From Pseudoflavonifractor sp. An184 (GTDB lineage: Bacteria > Bacillota > Clostridia > Oscillospirales > Oscillospiraceae): a stretch of DNA of 64,000 nt. Made by a program: the position numbers and the translations under genes. Location of the stretch: the NCBI RefSeq assembly GCF_002160305.1, contig NZ_NFKI01000004.1:62001-126000 (forward strand). The letters are read 5' to 3'. Position 1 is the first letter of the stretch. Each line of letters begins with the position of its first letter. Below, piece by piece: positions 11,150 to 63,332 of the stretch. The notes below the pieces were generated by a model. It saw only the letters and a list, made by a program, of their open reading frames with translations. It was not told the DNA's origin and ran no database searches.

Positions 11150-11280
11150 TTTTTGACAAGTCACTACAATCTAGATATTTAAAATTTTGAATCAGCTATC
11201 TTAAATCTTGTCCAACGGTCCTTCTGGGCCACGCCGCTTTTGCGGCGTTCGAGCGTTTTGCCGCAGGTAAAACCTCGGCG
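11150..11280 (+). repeat. 131-bp direct repeat, left copy
   Basis: The same 131 bases recur at 11613-11743 with about five mismatches. The left half is AT-rich (TTTTTGACAAGTCACTAC...); the right half is a run of short stems (CGCCGC/GCGGCG, GTTTTGCC/GGTAAAAC). The right half also resembles 44353-44430 after ftsY. Confidence 0.9.
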
Positions 11281-11331
11281 CAGAGCGAATTCATTTCGCC
11301 CGAGCATTTTAAAGAATCCCGGGTACCAAAA

Positions 11332-11362
11332 AAAGAAGCACCTGCTATGCAGGTGCTTCTTT
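11332..11362 (+). terminator. hairpin with T-runs, left of the family-1 repeat
   Basis: The stem AAAGAAGCACCTGC / GCAGGTGCTTCTTT has a 3-base loop and runs of A and T on either side, so it could terminate in both directions. An identical hairpin is at 11584-11614. Confidence 0.7.
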
Positions 11363-11614: not shown

Positions 11615-11743
11615 TTTGACAAGTCACTACAATCTAGATATTTAAAATTTTGAATCAGCTGTCTTAAATCTTGTCCTACGGCCCTTCTGGGCCGCGCCGC
11701 TTTTGCGGCGTTCGAGCGTTTTGCCGCAGGCAAAACCTCGGCG
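11613..11743 (+). repeat. 131-bp direct repeat, right copy
   Basis: Matches 11150-11280. It continues into further stems (GGGCGGC/GCCGCCC at about 11755-11772 and GGCCGCC/GGCGGCC at about 11790-11807) and then the tRNA-Gln terminator hairpin. Confidence 0.9.
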
Positions 11744-11813
11744 GAAGGGCGGCTTCGCCGCCCTGAGCATTCTAATGCCGAAGGGTGTAGGCCGCCTCTG
11801 GCGGCCGGAACCC

Positions 11814-11853
11814 AAAACAAAAGGCAACTGCTTTCGCAGTTGCCTTTTGTTTT
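11814..11853 (-). terminator. intrinsic terminator of tRNA-Gln
   Basis: An 18-base perfect stem (11814-11831 / 11836-11853) with a 4-base loop whose outer part is A/T-rich. It begins where the tRNA's CCA ends on the minus strand. Confidence 0.8.
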
Positions 11854-11926
11854 GGCAGCGGGAGAAGGATTCGAACCCTCACAAACAGAGTCAGAGTCTG
11901 TCGTGCTACCCTTACACAATCCCGCT
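11853..11926 (-). tRNA. tRNA-Gln (anticodon CUG)
   Basis: The minus strand gives an acceptor AGCGGGA / TCCCGCT, a short D stem GTG/CAC with GGGTAG in the loop, an anticodon arm ACAGA-CTCTGAC-TCTGT with anticodon CTG, a T arm GAGGG-TTCGAAT-CCTTC, and an encoded GCCA 3' end. The GAC-TCTGAC-TC context is that of glutamine tRNAs. The 11927-12110 stretch behind it has no gene and holds a GC-rich palindrome near 12068-12095. Confidence 0.9.
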
Positions 11927-33779: not shown

Positions 33780-33956
33780 ATCTCATGCCCTCCGCCTCTA
33801 CTCCATTTTCATAGGGCGGGGGAGCGGTCAAAAAGGAGGAAAAAGCCGCCGGGCCGGCGGTGCGGCAGTGTGGAGACCTGCCGTAAAGCCCGGGGAGTTT
33901 CGCTCTCCCCGGACGAGAGGGTACTTGCGGAGGCATTGCCCTTACGGCCCACGCAT
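33780..33956 (+). other. long structured leader of the ATPase gene
   Basis: A 177-base stretch between nagA and the ATPase start. It contains a strong AAAAGGAGG (33834-33842) with no start codon at a useful distance, a stem CCGGGGAG/CTCCCCGG (about 33889-33912) and other GC stems. No known riboswitch could be matched. GTG 33870 opens the frame in phase with the ATPase. Confidence 0.4.
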
Positions 33957-35078
<1,122 letters not shown>

Positions 35079-41400: not shown

Positions 41401-42016
41401 CAATGTGAACGTGGGGGCCATCGAGGAGTTCCAGCGGATCAACGAGCGGTACACCTACCTCACCGACCAGCGGGACGACGTGGAGACCGCCAAGAAGGAG
41501 CTGGAGGACGTGATCGCCCAGATCACCGGGGAGATGAAGACCATCTTCGCCCGGGAGTTTGAGAACATCAACCAGGCGTTCCAGCAGACCTTCCAGGAGC
41601 TCTTCGGCGGCGGCCGGGCCGCCCTGGAGCTGGAGGACCCGGATGACATCCTCAACTGCGGCATCGAGATCAAGGTGCAGCCCCCCGGGAAGGCGCTGAA
41701 GGTGCTCTCCCTCCTGTCCGGCGGGGAGAAGGCCTTCGTGGCCATTGCCCTGTATTTCGCCATTCTGAAGGTGCGCCCCACCCCCTTCGTGGTCATGGAC
41801 GAGATCGAGGCCGCCCTGGACGACAACAACGTGGTCCGCTTCGCCCGGTATATGCGCTCCATGTCCGATAAGACCCAGTTCATCGTCATCACCCACCGCC
41901 GCGGCACCATGGAGGAGGCCGACGTTTTGTATGGCGTGACCATGCAGGAGCAGGGCGTGTCCCGCATGCTCACCATTAACCTCAATGATGTGGAAAAAGA
42001 GCTGAATATTCGATAA
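38444..42016 (+). CDS. smc: chromosome segregation protein SMC
   Basis: ATG 38444 gives 1190 residues with the standard start MYLKALEIQGFKSFPDKT; GTG 38438 is in frame but closer to the ribosome site. Walker A GPNGSGKSNISDAIRW, a hinge near 515-630 (GLIHVPDLYTVAIETALGG), two long coiled coils, signature LLSGGEKAFVAIAL and Walker B FVVMDEIEAALDD. SMC dimers with ScpAB organise the chromosome. The last 24 codons are duplicated 140 bases downstream with only synonymous changes (see 42157-42227). rnc, a common upstream neighbour, is absent. Confidence 0.97.
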   Translation: MYLKALEIQGFKSFPDKTVLTFGEDITAIVGPNGSGKSNISDAIRWVMGEQSTRTLRGGKMEDVIFGGTAQRKQTGYAEVSLVLDNTTHLFDLEESEVMVTRRYYRSGESEYYINRRSVRLKDINELFMDTGLGREGYSIIGQGKIDEILSVKSSDRREVFEEAAGISRYRHRKEEAERKLERTDENLVRINDKIAELELQVEPLREQSEKAKKYLVLRDELRGLEISVWLDTLERIRVNNIKLETDYKEAVRQKEEAERAVEERFAQAEKLSEQMRDKEVQADQLRFAIQSREATIRELESSVAVLKSSIQHNLENTARIREELEQREGRQDSLSGQIAERAARLSEIEKQLTDTRRRAEEQNQKAQEALRTAGTLAQELEALRGQEATKTADAHQAKALLSALAAAAQEVLDRDEAVRQELRGLEERLDFARTDLGKADKKLKQAREERDSVQNVISGYSLRLESRKKKAAQAQERHTRLRMDENALASRIKMLTEMEKDREGYSKAVKLVMGEADRGSLRNIHGPVAGLIHVPDLYTVAIETALGGAMQNIVVDREEDGKAVIQYLKRRDGGRATILPLSSIRPYDLREAGSLQREPGFVGVADQLVKFDPRYRNVFSNLLGRVVVMEDLDAAIAAARKYGYKFRIVTLDGQVLNPGGSMTGGSASRSAGILSRANELERLNTQAQGLKEQLAQAARDLESASREAEAASYEMETAQGQLREWEDAILKAQGEQNLCKSVLSDLERQQEGQRAELEQLKQRSQEIEKDTQAARGRIQELEGEAAALKSEAEGKARGQSDLQERSLKLTQELSELNAALAALEAEREATSKGLEELESLRSDIAGDQEQSRALIGDYEEKNEAFTREIGEKEARLAQLRRENEEQNQTIARLNQEKLSLEGERVKATREGQEKNKELLAISGEASRLEQKKVAASLEEKQLLDKLWETYELSHEAAKLQRVEIESAPKASRRIAELKKHISALGNVNVGAIEEFQRINERYTYLTDQRDDVETAKKELEDVIAQITGEMKTIFAREFENINQAFQQTFQELFGGGRAALELEDPDDILNCGIEIKVQPPGKALKVLSLLSGGEKAFVAIALYFAILKVRPTPFVVMDEIEAALDDNNVVRFARYMRSMSDKTQFIVITHRRGTMEEADVLYGVTMQEQGVSRMLTINLNDVEKELNIR

Positions 42017-42026
42017 AGAAGACGAT

Positions 42027-42041
42027 CCCTGCTCCTGCATG
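42027..42041 (-). repeat. 15-base inverted copy of the smc 3' region
   Basis: The reverse complement of CCCTGCTCCTGCATG equals smc bases 41941-41955 exactly. It starts 11 bases after the smc stop codon. A matching inverted copy exists behind ftsY at 44339-44352. Confidence 0.9.
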
Positions 42042-42156
42042 CGGGGCCCCCGCCCGAGCCCAGCGCAGCGGGTCGGGTGGGGAGAGGAGACGCAAGGAAA
42101 TGGAGCGACCAATGCCCGCCAGGGCGTTGGGAGCGGAGTGAACTTTGCGTCGACGA
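42042..42156 (+). other. structured segment between the two smc tails
   Basis: 115 GC-rich bases able to fold into nested stems: GACGCAA/TTGCGTC as an outer pair (about 42089-42151), CCAATGCCC/GGGCGTTGG inside it (about 42109-42130), and a CCCGA...TCGGG stem near 42052-42078. A short frame here (from 42039) is open but is not protein-like until it enters the second smc tail. It could be a structured RNA or the remains of a mobile element. Confidence 0.6.
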
Positions 42157-42227
42157 AGGAGCAGGGCGTGTCCCGCATGTTGACCATCAACCTGAACGAT
42201 GTGGAAAAAGAACTGAATATCAGGTGA
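42157..42227 (+). repeat. second, recoded copy of the smc 3' end
   Basis: The first 23 bases (42157-42179) equal smc 41946-41968. The following 16 codons encode the same residues (ending EKELNIR) but seven sense codons differ synonymously (for example CTC/TTG, ATT/ATC, CGA/AGG) and the stop is TGA instead of TAA. There is no start codon or ribosome site of its own. Confidence 0.95.
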
Positions 42228-42234
42228 GGCGGGG

Positions 42235-42789
42235 ATGAATGTGGATTATCCCAAGCGAAAGCACGTGCGGCTGAAAAATTATGATTACAGCCGGAATGGC
42301 ATATATTTTGTGACCATCTGCACTCAAAATCGCAGGTGTATCTTGTCGCAAATTGTGCTGCCGCGTGTCGTAGGGGCGGAAATGGTAGGGCGGGGGCTTG
42401 CCCCCGCCGCCCCCCGGCTCACCGCATGCGGCAGGCTGGTGGAAGAAGAATTGACGGCCCTTATGGTACGATATCCGTCTGTTTGGATAGAAAAATATGT
42501 GATCATGCCCAATCATATTCATGCATTGATCTGCCTGCAAGAAGATACGGCGGGGGCAAGCCCCCGCCCTACGTTGATGCAGGTCCTGGGGACGTTGAAA
42601 TCATTGACAACGCGGCGGTGGAATGGGATGATTGGACAACCTGGGGCAAAGCTTTGGCAATCCGGCTACCACGACCACATCATCCGGGACGACAACGATT
42701 TTTTGACCCACTGGACCTACATCGACCAAAACCCCGCCCGATGGACACAGGACGAGTATTACCAGGAAGAACGGGAGAGACAGCCATGA
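42235..42789 (+). CDS. RAYT / REP-associated Y1 transposase (IS200-like)
   Basis: A 184-residue protein with the TnpA_REP pattern: KRKHVRLKNYDYSRNGIYFV at the N-terminus, VTICTQNR, and VIMPNHIHALI carrying the HxH (histidine-hydrophobic-histidine) pair. The catalytic tyrosine region WQSGYHDHIIRDDND is near 140. RAYTs cut single-stranded REP hairpins. Two REP-like palindromes lie inside the gene itself, read in frame as GRGLAPAAP and AGASPRPT. It starts eight bases after the second smc tail, inside the smc-ftsY operon. Confidence 0.9.
   Translation: MNVDYPKRKHVRLKNYDYSRNGIYFVTICTQNRRCILSQIVLPRVVGAEMVGRGLAPAAPRLTACGRLVEEELTALMVRYPSVWIEKYVIMPNHIHALICLQEDTAGASPRPTLMQVLGTLKSLTTRRWNGMIGQPGAKLWQSGYHDHIIRDDNDFLTHWTYIDQNPARWTQDEYYQEERERQP
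42389..42408. repeat. REP-like palindrome inside the RAYT gene (first)
   Basis: GGCGGGGGC-TT-GCCCCCGCC, preceded by GGTAG. Its length keeps the transposase frame open. Confidence 0.85.
42549..42568. repeat. REP-like palindrome inside the RAYT gene (second)
   Basis: GGCGGGGGC-AA-GCCCCCGCC followed by CTACG, the inverse of the first copy. Confidence 0.85.
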
Positions 42790-43109
42790 ATGACAAGAGA
42801 AAGCGCGCAATTTTATCCGTTGTGGGGATGGTTGCCCTGCTGATCGTCTGTGTAATCGGGGTGCAGGCGGTATTTGCCGGGCTGGGGATGGTAAGCGCCC
42901 GGCATGGCGGCGTCTCCTCCAGCCAGAGCGCCCAGGCGGACGGAGACGGAAGCCAGCCGGTTCAGGAGCCGGGGGCTTCTTCCATGCCGGAGGATGCCGG
43001 CTCCTCCCAGCCCGCCCCCAGCTTCTGCCCCTTCTGCGGCGAGGGCCTGCCCTCCTCCTTCCAGTGGGGCCAGTTCTGTCCCTACTGCGGGGAGCAGGTT
43101 GAGGCGTAG
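42786..43109 (+). CDS. membrane-anchored zinc-ribbon protein
   Basis: A 107-residue protein whose ATG overlaps the transposase stop (ATGA). It has one N-terminal membrane segment (ILSVVGMVALLIVCVIGVQAV), a Ser/Gln/Pro-rich linker and a C-terminal pair CPFCGE...CPYCGE typical of a zinc ribbon. I do not recognise a specific family. It is co-translated with the RAYT gene and lies in the smc-ftsY gap. Confidence 0.7.
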   Translation: MNDKRKRAILSVVGMVALLIVCVIGVQAVFAGLGMVSARHGGVSSSQSAQADGDGSQPVQEPGASSMPEDAGSSQPAPSFCPFCGEGLPSSFQWGQFCPYCGEQVEA

Positions 43110-43120
43110 GAGGAAAATTT

Positions 43121-43432
43121 ATGGAAAAGACGATGAAATGCCTGCGCTGCGGGCAGACGCTGAAATTTCTGAGGAGGGAAAATCTACAACTGGGAAAGAC
43201 CGGATGGATTACCGGGGACTGGGGCAATCTGCTGGCCGGAGCCCTGGATGTGGCCATCCTCCAGTGCTCCGGCTGCGGGAAGCTGGAGTTTTTCAAGGGG
43301 GACGCCTTTGAGGAGCAGGACGAGGGTCCGGCGGGTGACCTGGCCCAGGTGACCTGTCCGAACTGCGGCGTGCGCTATGACTGCGACTATCCCAAGTGCC
43401 CGGTGTGCGGCACAGAGAACACCATTTTTTGA
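43121..43432 (+). CDS. small zinc-ribbon protein
   Basis: A 103-residue protein with four cysteine pairs: CLRCGQ at the N-terminus, CSGCGK, CPNCG and CPVCG. This suggests two zinc ribbons. No membrane segment. It is 11 bases after the previous gene and 15 before ftsY, in one operon. Function unknown. Confidence 0.75.
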   Translation: MEKTMKCLRCGQTLKFLRRENLQLGKTGWITGDWGNLLAGALDVAILQCSGCGKLEFFKGDAFEEQDEGPAGDLAQVTCPNCGVRYDCDYPKCPVCGTENTIF

Positions 43433-43447
43433 GGAAGGAACGAGACC

Positions 43448-44317
43448 ATGGGCTTTTTTGACAAACTGAAAAAGATCAACATTTTTTCCAGCTTCGGCTC
43501 GGAGCTCACCGACGACTTCTACGACGAACTGGAGGAGTCCCTGATCCTGGCGGACACGGGGATGGACACCGCCCTGGAGCTGGTGGAGGAGCTGCGCCGC
43601 CGGGTGAAGGACGAGCGCATCAAGACGATAGAGGAGGCCCGCGCCTGCATGTGCCGGTGTGTGGCTGACGCCCTGAACGCGGGGGACCCGGCGCTGGACC
43701 TGTCCACCCGGCCCTCGGTGGTGCTGTTCATCGGGGTGAACGGGGTGGGCAAGACCACCACCATCGGCAAGATCGGCTATCAGCTGCGCCGGGAGCGGAA
43801 AAAAGTCCTCTTCTGCGCCGCCGACACCTTCCGGGCCGCCGCCGCCGACCAGCTCACCATCTGGGCGGAGCGGGCCGGGGTGGAGATCGTCAAGCAGCAC
43901 GAGGGGGCCGACCCCGCCGCCGTGGTCTTTGACGCGGCCACCGCCGCCAAGGCCCGGAACACCGACGTGATGCTGGTGGACACCGCCGGCCGCCTCCACA
44001 ACAAGCAGAACCTGATGAACGAGCTGAATAAGATTTCCCGGGTCATCGACCGGGAGCTGCCCGGCTGCGCCCGGGAGACCCTGCTGGTGCTGGACGCCAC
44101 CACGGGGCAGAACGGCCTCATCCAGGCCAAGCAGTTCAAAGAGGCCGCCGGCATCACCGGCATCGTCCTCACCAAGCTGGACGGCACCGCCAAGGGGGGC
44201 ATTGCCATCGCCATCGCCAGGGAACTGGGCGTGCCCGTCAAGTACGCCGGCGTGGGCGAGGGCGTGGACGATTTAAAGCCCTTCGATGCCATGGAGTTCG
44301 CGGAGGCCCTGATTTAA
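43448..44317 (+). CDS. ftsY: signal recognition particle receptor FtsY
   Basis: A 289-residue NG-domain protein without the acidic A domain, as usual in Firmicutes. G1 GVNGVGKTTTIGKI near residue 97, DTFRAAAADQL, G3 DTAGR, G4 TKLDGTAKGG and the end GVGEGVDDLKPFDAMEFAEA are intact. It docks SRP-ribosome complexes at the membrane. Its last codons are repeated 165 bases downstream with only synonymous changes (44482-44539). Confidence 0.96.
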   Translation: MGFFDKLKKINIFSSFGSELTDDFYDELEESLILADTGMDTALELVEELRRRVKDERIKTIEEARACMCRCVADALNAGDPALDLSTRPSVVLFIGVNGVGKTTTIGKIGYQLRRERKKVLFCAADTFRAAAADQLTIWAERAGVEIVKQHEGADPAAVVFDAATAAKARNTDVMLVDTAGRLHNKQNLMNELNKISRVIDRELPGCARETLLVLDATTGQNGLIQAKQFKEAAGITGIVLTKLDGTAKGGIAIAIARELGVPVKYAGVGEGVDDLKPFDAMEFAEALI

Positions 44318-44338
44318 CAGAATATGTTGAAAAGCAAG

Positions 44339-44352
44339 TCGTCCACGCCCTC
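44339..44352 (-). repeat. 14-base inverted copy of the ftsY 3' region
   Basis: The reverse complement of TCGTCCACGCCCTC equals ftsY bases 44258-44271 exactly. It begins 22 bases after the ftsY stop codon, the same relative place as the inverted copy behind smc. Confidence 0.88.
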
Positions 44353-44481
44353 AGCCGCCGCAGGCGGCCCGGCGCTTGCGCCGTCCAAGCGTTTTGCCGA
44401 AGGCAAAACCTTGCCGCAGGGCGGATTCATTCCGCCCGAGGATTTGAATAAAATGGGCCCCCAAACAAACAAAGTTTGTTT
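44353..44481 (+). other. five-hairpin segment between the two ftsY tails
   Basis: Stems in order: GCCGCC/GGCGGC, CGGCGC/GCGCCG, GTTTTGCC/GGCAAAAC, GGGCGG/CCGCCC and CCAAACAAAC/GTTTGTTTGG. The last abuts the second ftsY tail. The middle part resembles the right half of the 131-bp repeats at 11150 and 11613. Confidence 0.75.
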
Positions 44482-44539
44482 GGGCGTGGACGATTTAAAG
44501 CCCTTTGATGCCATGGAGTTTGCGGAAGCGCTTATTTGA
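44482..44539 (+). repeat. second, recoded copy of the ftsY 3' end
   Basis: The first 24 bases equal 44260-44283. The remaining codons encode the same residues to the end (FDAMEFAEALI) but five sense codons differ synonymously (TTC/TTT twice, GAG/GAA, GCC/GCG, CTG/CTT) and TAA is replaced by TGA. No start site of its own. Confidence 0.95.
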
Positions 44540-50947: not shown

Positions 50948-51196
50948 GAAATACCAGAAAAGCGTTGCCGAGGAGGAGTATCCGGCCGCGGGCGGTGAAG
51001 AGAGGAGACGGGTGGTGCAAGTCTCCCCGCCGGGCGGGAGAAGGTGGCCTCGAAGCTCCGCCCCTGAACTTGACGCAGTAGGGGGCGGCGGCCCCCGCCG
51101 TTACCGGGCTTGAGCGTTCCCCCACAGGGGAAAATTCAGGTGGTACCACGGACATGCTTACGTTCGCCCTGAGCCAAAGCGGCTCAGGGCATTTTT
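50948..51196 (+). promoter_or_regulatory. T-box riboswitch (valine) ahead of valS
   Basis: The T-box core AGGTGGTACCACGG is at 51138-51151 and would pair with the free NCCA end of uncharged tRNA. Stem I spans about 50968-51060, with AGAGGAG and GGTGGTGCAAG as its internal landmarks. The specifier loop near GAGAAGGTGG (51038-51047) contains GTG (Val) at 51044-51046, overlapping GGT (Gly) by one base. The terminator at 51166-51196 ends the leader. Uncharged tRNA-Val would favour antitermination and raise valS expression. Confidence 0.9.
51166..51196 (+). terminator. T-box-controlled terminator
   Basis: The stem GCCCTGAGCC / GGCTCAGGGC with a 5-base loop, followed by ATTTTTATT. Confidence 0.92.
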
Positions 51197-63081: not shown

Positions 63082-63098
63082 AATTTCAAGTTTGCATG

Positions 63099-63272
63099 AT
63101 AGAGGTCGCGGCCGACATGAGTACGCGTGGCCAGGGAGCCGGTTCCCGTCCACCCACGCCCAAAGGGAAGGCCGCCGAAGGGTTTTCCTCTCGCACCGGA
63201 ACGGAGGGCCCTGGTCGCCGGGTCAACAGCTCTGCGACTGTCATCAGGGCGGTTCCCTGATGGAGCGCTGTC
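63099..63272 (+). promoter_or_regulatory. lysine riboswitch (L box)
   Basis: The L-box landmarks occur in order: AGAGGTCGCG at the 5' end, ATGAGTA, AAGGGAAGGCCGCCGAAGGG, CTGTCATCAGGG and TGATGGAGCGCT at the 3' end. These form the five-stem lysine-binding core. It lies between the promoter and asd and should stop transcription when lysine is plentiful. Confidence 0.9.
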
Positions 63273-63332
63273 TGCTTTTGTGAATATTTTGCCGGCTGTG
63301 GGCGGTTTCGGCCACAGCTGACATTATAGTAC

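Follow-up and report, generated by a model that had tools for sequence, protein, structure and literature searches.

Why should two genes of one bacterial chromosome each be followed by a second copy of their own 3' end? The question is raised by smc and ftsY in a 64,000-nucleotide (nt) stretch of Pseudoflavonifractor sp. An184 (Oscillospirales, Oscillospiraceae; contig NZ_NFKI01000004.1, positions 62,001 to 126,000), hereafter the window. In the following, X denotes the gene core, D' the end attached to it, which is often recoded, and D the displaced orphan end; the 3.59-Mb genome of An184 itself is G000, and other genomes and fetched loci carry G and L numbers, respectively. Direct reading and repeat search revealed the same plan in both genes: X, a recoded D' with its stop codon, a spacer, an inverted copy of the junction (the guide-like segment), a hairpin array (the scaffold) and the second tail D. 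This shared plan had been described in a first-pass annotation of the window, and its coordinates as well as the inverted copies of 15 and 14 nt were confirmed. With a probability of roughly one half, we interpret these structures as gene-specific homing elements lacking any open reading frame (ORF), here called 'gene-end-restoring elements', which would be inserted and excised at the DNA level with the assistance of a guide and by a trans-acting factor.

At both loci the recoding is silent, with nine synonymous and no nonsynonymous differences between D' and D over 66 nt in smc, and five and none over 54 nt in ftsY. The inverted copy matches the upstream junction over 15 nt in smc and 14 nt in ftsY, vs only 10 and 12 nt of the second tail. 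In predicted RNA folds it pairs with the upstream junction (z = -6.07 for ftsY and -5.58 for smc) and the array folds as hairpins; the same pairing was predicted for DNA (z = -6.64 and -4.09), and none of 200 shuffled sequences was as stable in any of the four comparisons. The inserts at smc and ftsY contain the scaffold only and no ORF. The observation at these two genes is therefore confirmed as real, and it is wider than two loci.

The middle segment of ftsY (type B) has 30 BLAST matches in its own genome and that of smc (type A) has 12, each including itself, and a detector of C-terminal duplications found the plan at further genes. In an alignment of 11 type B scaffolds, compensatory changes were present in 12 of 24 predicted pairs. 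The first-pass annotation had set covariation and the existence of homologues as a test, and both were found; its proposal that elements near gene ends restore the reading frame was supported, and about 100 further loci belong to the family. Model R1, which was built from 11 elements of G000, matched 24 of 60 genomes (23 of them G000 or congeners) and, at E values up to 1e-6, 27 of 295 genomes of the order; matches per genome include free-standing copies, and at most 54 candidates were scored per genome. A pattern scan of GTDB contigs retrieved at least 116 stretches, and among the titles listed, which came from 80 of them, were Flavonifractor, Pseudoflavonifractor, Intestinimonas, Oscillibacter, Dysosmobacter, Oscillospiraceae, Clostridiales and a few others. 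No Rfam family was found for the scaffolds (window at gathering score; 14 loci at E values up to 1), and viral contigs yielded no exact match to the scaffold pattern.

The fetched loci contained 189 core sites, 13 of which lie at edges, leaving 176 testable. Direct repeats flank 141 of these sites, with an ORF stop in 130, and 107 duplicated tails were called by script, a number that includes at least five gene heads on the wrong strand (L067, L087, L245, L291 and L347) as well as some tandem or spurious calls. The two copies start 176-269 nt apart in 101 of the 107. A narrow pattern for type A recovered ten sites, seven with the plan (two of them composite), and among 11 loci from other genera of the order, nine were testable and five had the plan, all of the same family. 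Since loci were found via scaffold similarity, these figures are counts and not frequencies.

The called loci form 58 sequence clusters, two of which can be occupied by one gene. Based on an NCBIfam scan of representatives of 30 clusters plus smc and ftsY, 31 target genes could be named, most of them housekeeping genes: infB, lepA, efp, tuf, asnS, aspS, glyS, uvrA, uvrB, secA, tsaD, mnmG, nrdD, glmS, eno, gpmI, argG, argH, fhs, nadE, upp, ackA, serC, lysA, rnhA, eutL, an AraC-like regulator, an OmpR/PhoB-like regulator, a HIT protein, smc and ftsY (for some of these names the match did not reach the curated cut-off, in several cases with a partial ORF: secA, lysA, the two regulators and HIT). 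Two further targets, exoIII and pgk, were named by eye only.

Table 1. Components of the units at smc and ftsY (window positions) and loci with restored gene heads
Feature	Location	Strand	Basis
smc D', recoded tail with stop TAA, now the translated C-terminus	41946..42016	+	repeat search, codon comparison
Spacer 3' of smc stop	42017..42026	+	sequence reading
smc guide-like segment, 15 nt, junction-spanning, exact reverse complement of 41941-41955	42027..42041	+	inverted-repeat search
Type A scaffold: GGGGCCCC..CGAGCCCAGCGCAGCGGG hairpin, then further hairpins, GACGA at end	42042..42156	+	
smc D, orphan tail with stop TGA	42157..42227	+	3' flank homologous to that of G010 smc tail
ftsY D', recoded tail with stop TAA	44260..44317	+	repeat search, codon comparison
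Spacer 3' of ftsY stop	44318..44338	+	sequence reading
ftsY guide-like segment, 14 nt, junction-spanning, exact reverse complement of 44258-44271	44339..44352	+	inverted-repeat search
Type B scaffold, multi-hairpin array, among the 11 sequences used for model R1	44353..44481	+	
ftsY D, orphan, apparently native tail with stop TGA	44482..44539	+	G010 identity, homologous 3' flank
lepA heads (5)	L233, L262, L280, L285, L347		
typA-like heads (2)	L067, L087		
truB heads (5)	L234, L245, L269, L291, L304		

To what extent is the guide-like segment specific for its own site? For 98 non-redundant loci with a copy spacing of 150-300 nt, the best ungapped match to the junction scored at least 10 in 78, compared with 76 of 1942 shuffled pairings of target and guide, and at least 9 in 82, compared with 10 of 98 in a same-orientation control. 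Among the 88 loci scoring 7 or more, the match begins 1-6 nt inside X in 57 and stops 5-11 nt into D in 60. The better fit to the upstream copy that had been pointed out for smc and ftsY is general, as the guide fits the gene-attached end better than the orphan end at 83 of the 98 loci, equally at 12 and worse at three. Where D' and D differ within the guide span, the guide agrees with D' at 52 of 59 positions, a figure that is biased by selection of the helix on the D' side. Guide and target also co-vary between species: at homologous sites (locus pairs within gene clusters, helix score of at least 8 only), 44 locus-pair positions were compensated, while the target had changed without the guide at 10 and the guide without the target at 32, with four other and 551 unchanged positions. 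In infB and uvrB, distinct insertion sites each have their own matching segment.

The units are present in both orientations. In 12 loci the guide and scaffold lie antisense to the gene at its 5' end, and an orphan head is located past the scaffold (Table 1); these head-restoring copies had been missed by the first-pass annotation. By eye, the head D' has a start codon and an upstream purine-rich stretch resembling a ribosome-binding site (in L233 if TTG is the start). The heads were chosen by eye from 75 antisense ORFs, mostly shadow frames, and five of the 12 were checked against NCBIfam, the typA one being partial and below the cut-off. The guide score was at least 11 in ten of the 12 (L067, 10 and away from the junction; L304, 6), and in the six diverged heads (L234, L245, L262, L269, L280 and L285) 37 of 55 differences are at third positions in the frame of the gene. 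Thus, the orientation of the element is outward from the gene body, independent of transcription.

Since the heads are antisense and the tails sense, removal from mRNA would hardly serve both, which favours a process at the DNA level or an RNA read from the element strand. The head copies antisense to the lepA, typA-like and truB genes speak against simple mRNA splicing, which was set aside on their account. In an intron-like scheme, the guide would serve as an internal guide sequence, pairing first with the upstream junction and later with D, and the unit would be spliced from mRNA. This scheme would account for the complementarity of the guide to joined X-D, as required for P1/P10 of group I introns, for the largely intact D and for a slight G.U bias. 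However, in the antisense heads the mRNA would contain the complement of the scaffold, no Rfam intron family, including a group I core, was found (window at gathering score; 14 loci at E values up to 1), and the scaffold, at about 130 nt, is short. We regard this scheme as very improbable.

Which of the two ends is the original one? In the close relative G010, eight of these genes lack a scaffold after the stop, and these empty sites could be compared directly. The flank 3' of D is homologous to the G010 flank in seven of the eight genes (scores 37-115; argG, 10), vs none of the eight for the sequence after D' (scores 7-10). D is closer to the G010 tail than D' in exoIII, ftsY, fhs and aspS; the two are equal in smc and nearly so in efp (37 against 36). 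In the distal half of ftsY, D is identical to the G010 tail at 27 of 28 positions and D' at 23, whereas the first 24 nt of D are the same as D' and not G010, which is consistent with what co-conversion would leave. Thus, a foreign-like D' stands beside a native-like D in some genes, and the flank after D is native in most of those tested. The same gene can also be occupied in other species, such as aspS and lepA in G011 and smc in G015.

Differences between D and D' are mostly at third codon positions (300 of 456), and 12 of 88 loci have no difference between D' and D over the whole of the end compared. In L013, L234, L238, L241 and L249 the copies are identical up to the stop codon or to a point no more than two bases from it; in others, such as L140, L258 and L339, the identity continues past the stop. 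In L037, L043, L118, L268, L273 and L318 it extends through spacer and guide, resembling a tandem array, and several draft contigs terminate at or near these elements. Simple target-site duplication as the whole story was rejected, as identity ends at the stop in several loci even where D' equals D. Junctions are unevenly spread over the three codon phases (54, 21 and 13 of 88); this was not used as evidence because several loci in the same gene do not count as independent observations.

These patterns bear on the main rival of DNA-level guided insertion, which is spread by recombination only. Here no dedicated enzyme would be needed: template switching during replication would make the repeats round a hairpinned insert, the guide would be a fold-back of the nascent strand, and transformation with homologous recombination would spread and homogenise the copies. 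The loci in which D' equals D, the ends of identity near the stop in the five loci listed above, as expected of gene conversion confined to homology, the tandem-array-like L268, L273 and L318, and the D of ftsY, which resembles a co-conversion product, all agree with it. However, one covarying scaffold is found at more than 30 genes, and infB and uvrB have multiple sites, each with its own guide; the same scaffold at so many genes together with a separate guide per site requires a recurrent process and not accidents. We consider this rival unlikely.

Reverse transcriptase (RVT_1) was absent from the plan-bearing genomes G010 (98% complete) and G008, G019 and G026 (80-88% complete), and the IS110 DEDD transposase from the carriers G010, G008, G012 and G026. 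The first absence speaks against a group II intron or retroelement, the second against an IS110 system with bridge RNA. Full-length TnpB-type zinc ribbons occur not only in G010 and G017 but in four genomes without R1 matches as well (G003, G007, G014 and G022); none was found in the carriers G008 and G019, and matches were weak and partial in G000, G011, G012, G015 and G026. Thus, the presence of TnpB does not follow that of the elements. The weak zinc ribbon common to carriers was discarded as a candidate, since the protein concerned is AccD-like and encoded next to genes for acetyl-CoA carboxylase (judged by eye in two of seven loci fetched). The RRXRR domain of IscB had no match in G000, but the control matched nowhere either.

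The first-pass annotation had raised the idea of a guide plus scaffold. Antisense segments specific for their site, with a structured scaffold behind them, were indeed found; such a segment is no more than a putative RNA guide, and it usually fits the element-bearing allele best, even where D' and D are identical. RNA-guided nuclease homing, in which an RNA of guide and scaffold would lead a trans-acting nuclease to empty sites with the recoded end as a rescue copy, is in line with a guide that lies immediately 5' of the scaffold and covers the insertion point, and with the existence of element-free sites. On the other hand, the carriers would be cut, because the guide fits their own X|D' best and D' equals D in 12 of 88 loci, and neither the zinc ribbons, whose weak common match is the AccD-like protein, nor the IscB search with its silent control lends it a nuclease. 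Recoding as immunity to a nuclease was rejected on account of the same 12 loci without recoding. We find nuclease homing improbable.

A Y1 transposase had also been suggested as the possible enzyme; its gene, which is RAYT-like (42235-42789), adjoins smc in the window. It is a neighbour of smc in G010, G011 and G020 too, and in G010 and G020 the smc tail has no scaffold, so that the gene gains no support as part of the element. Y1 enzymes of the HUH class recognize hairpins and employ short guide sequences, and such an enzyme, perhaps of the RAYT kind, could act in trans on the hairpins, transposing single strands with a guide of unusual length. Co-occurrence with RAYT, a check proposed earlier, proved uninformative: matches to the RAYT model, all below the cut-off, were present in each of the nine carriers of the plan that were examined (G000, G008, G010, G011, G012, G015, G017, G019 and G026; three in G010 and two in G019), but also in six of seven genomes without R1 matches, or 16 of 18 genomes overall. 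Because RAYT is present in carriers and non-carriers, it is neither implicated nor excluded. Furthermore, Pfam Y1_Tnp had no match in the carriers G010 and G019, and by eye the elements are unlike the REP-like inverted repeats of the RAYT-like gene (42385-42409 and 42548-42572, 25 nt, 100% complementary). We rate a Y1/HUH mechanism as doubtful as nuclease homing.

For the homing elements proposed at the outset, the following mechanism may be envisaged. The unit itself consists of D' (a functional end with a stop codon, or with a start codon and ribosome-binding site), spacer, guide-like segment complementary to X|D, and scaffold; it sits at the junction X|D inside a conserved gene end, and the displaced D lies beyond the scaffold. 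Insertion into essential genes would be nearly harmless because a replacement end is supplied. The segment would act in cis on one DNA strand, or in an RNA read from that strand, pairing with the cut site and keeping X beside D while a trans-acting enzyme excises or inserts the unit. As the unit regenerates its own target, tandem copies would be possible, and homologous recombination may carry units between species, part of D being co-converted. More tentatively, the units may represent a new, guide-directed class of ORF-less mobile elements that enter the 5' or 3' ends of essential genes in either orientation, regenerate both gene and target, and depend on a putative enzyme or catalytic nucleic acid of the Oscillospiraceae.

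Several observations weigh against this proposal. The match score is below 7 in 10 of the 98 loci, where the guide is absent or weak, and the type A element at exoIII in G000 has a guide match of 5 nt only. In lepA and argG it is D' that is closer to G010 and looks native instead of D. Guide/target mismatches comprise 21 G.U, 12 A.C and 41 others, and substitutions in D that keep G.U pairing are in excess within the guide span (22:11, vs 98:110 outside; p = 0.04), a weak hint of a role at the RNA level. D is nearly as constrained as D', unlike old dead ends: between species, D' has 413 synonymous and 211 nonsynonymous codon differences and D has 418 and 243, with stop codons in D in four pairs (the tail caller retains conserved tails only, so that the conservation of D is overstated). 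This constraint implies that D was recently native (the element having arrived recently), is refreshed by conversion from D', or is still used. Finally, no enzyme for element movement was identified among the families searched, and neither excision nor insertion was observed within one strain.

If the guide directs insertion, these elements would allow insertion to be programmed in a way that differs from CRISPR transposons, bridge RNAs and introns, and they would be nature's equivalent of synthetic home-and-rescue drives. If they spread by recombination alone, a hairpin family would still colonise dozens of conserved gene ends by rebuilding them. In either case, orphan ends resemble extra small genes and are a risk for annotation.

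Scaffolds also occur apart from the plan. Free-standing type B copies lie in the window at 11200-11360 and 11660-11860 (G000:C97:73240-73312 and 73690-73771) and in L033, L034, L047, L049 and L050; several free-standing copies face the 3' ends of tRNA genes and finish in a hairpin like an intrinsic terminator, and some retain a short scaffold-adjacent helix, GTCTTGTCCG / CGGACAAGAC (L283, L287 and L308), with an extra downstream copy of that helix strand in L287. Such copies may be a non-coding RNA or an ancestral form. A related hairpin scaffold is present in G042, from another family of the order, with at least 54 R1 matches, and the gene-end plan was not seen in ten of its loci read by eye (L122-L131). 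Elsewhere in the window, Rfam identified a malK-I RNA motif (33783-33962), a T-box leader (50956-51174) and a lysine riboswitch (63092-63278).

How do these elements compare with known systems? IS200/IS605 and REP/RAYT elements have hairpins near their ends, short segments on one DNA strand that pair with the cleavage site, and small non-autonomous copies. At the sequence level, a hairpin with an adjacent junction-pairing segment on one strand is present here too, as are small copies, but the pairing is much longer (about 12-16 nt vs about 4 nt), a copy of the gene end is carried and a clear link to Y1 is lacking. The guide RNAs of IscB and IsrB (OMEGA) likewise have a 5' guide followed by a structured scaffold; unlike them, the guide here fits its own carrier allele, with no nuclease gene seen and no Rfam match. 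Prophages and integrative elements at gene 3' ends also regenerate the gene end, whereas the present units are about 200 bp long, contain no integrase, have an antisense segment for each site and occupy many targets per genome. Group I introns and IStrons (for which see PMC4227781 and PMC3984707) are a further comparison. In them, too, a guide is complementary to the sequences on either side of the insertion site; the units described here differ in having no Rfam group I match, a gene end with stop inside the unit, and antisense insertions.

The closest analogue is found in the mobile ORF (mORF) insertions of fungal mitochondria. According to the part of the report consulted (PMC3630166), C-terminal duplication affects atp6 of Allomyces and atp6, atp9, cox2 and nad3 of Glomus; what is inserted includes a foreign C-terminus, recoded and in frame, and the native one is displaced downstream, the protein sequence of the native end is kept, relatives are insert-free, and the inserts encode a LAGLIDADG or GIY-YIG endonuclease. 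A foreign end brought in and a native end displaced is common to both, and this feature is clear here in exoIII, ftsY, fhs and aspS among the eight genes, with lepA and argG deviating. In contrast, the elements described here have no ORF, their scaffold is common to dozens of genes and heads are restored too; they have a guide and scaffold, for which that part of PMC3630166 has no counterpart. A literature search that reached few subscription papers and no preprints found no description of such elements. For none of the families compared could every defining feature be matched.

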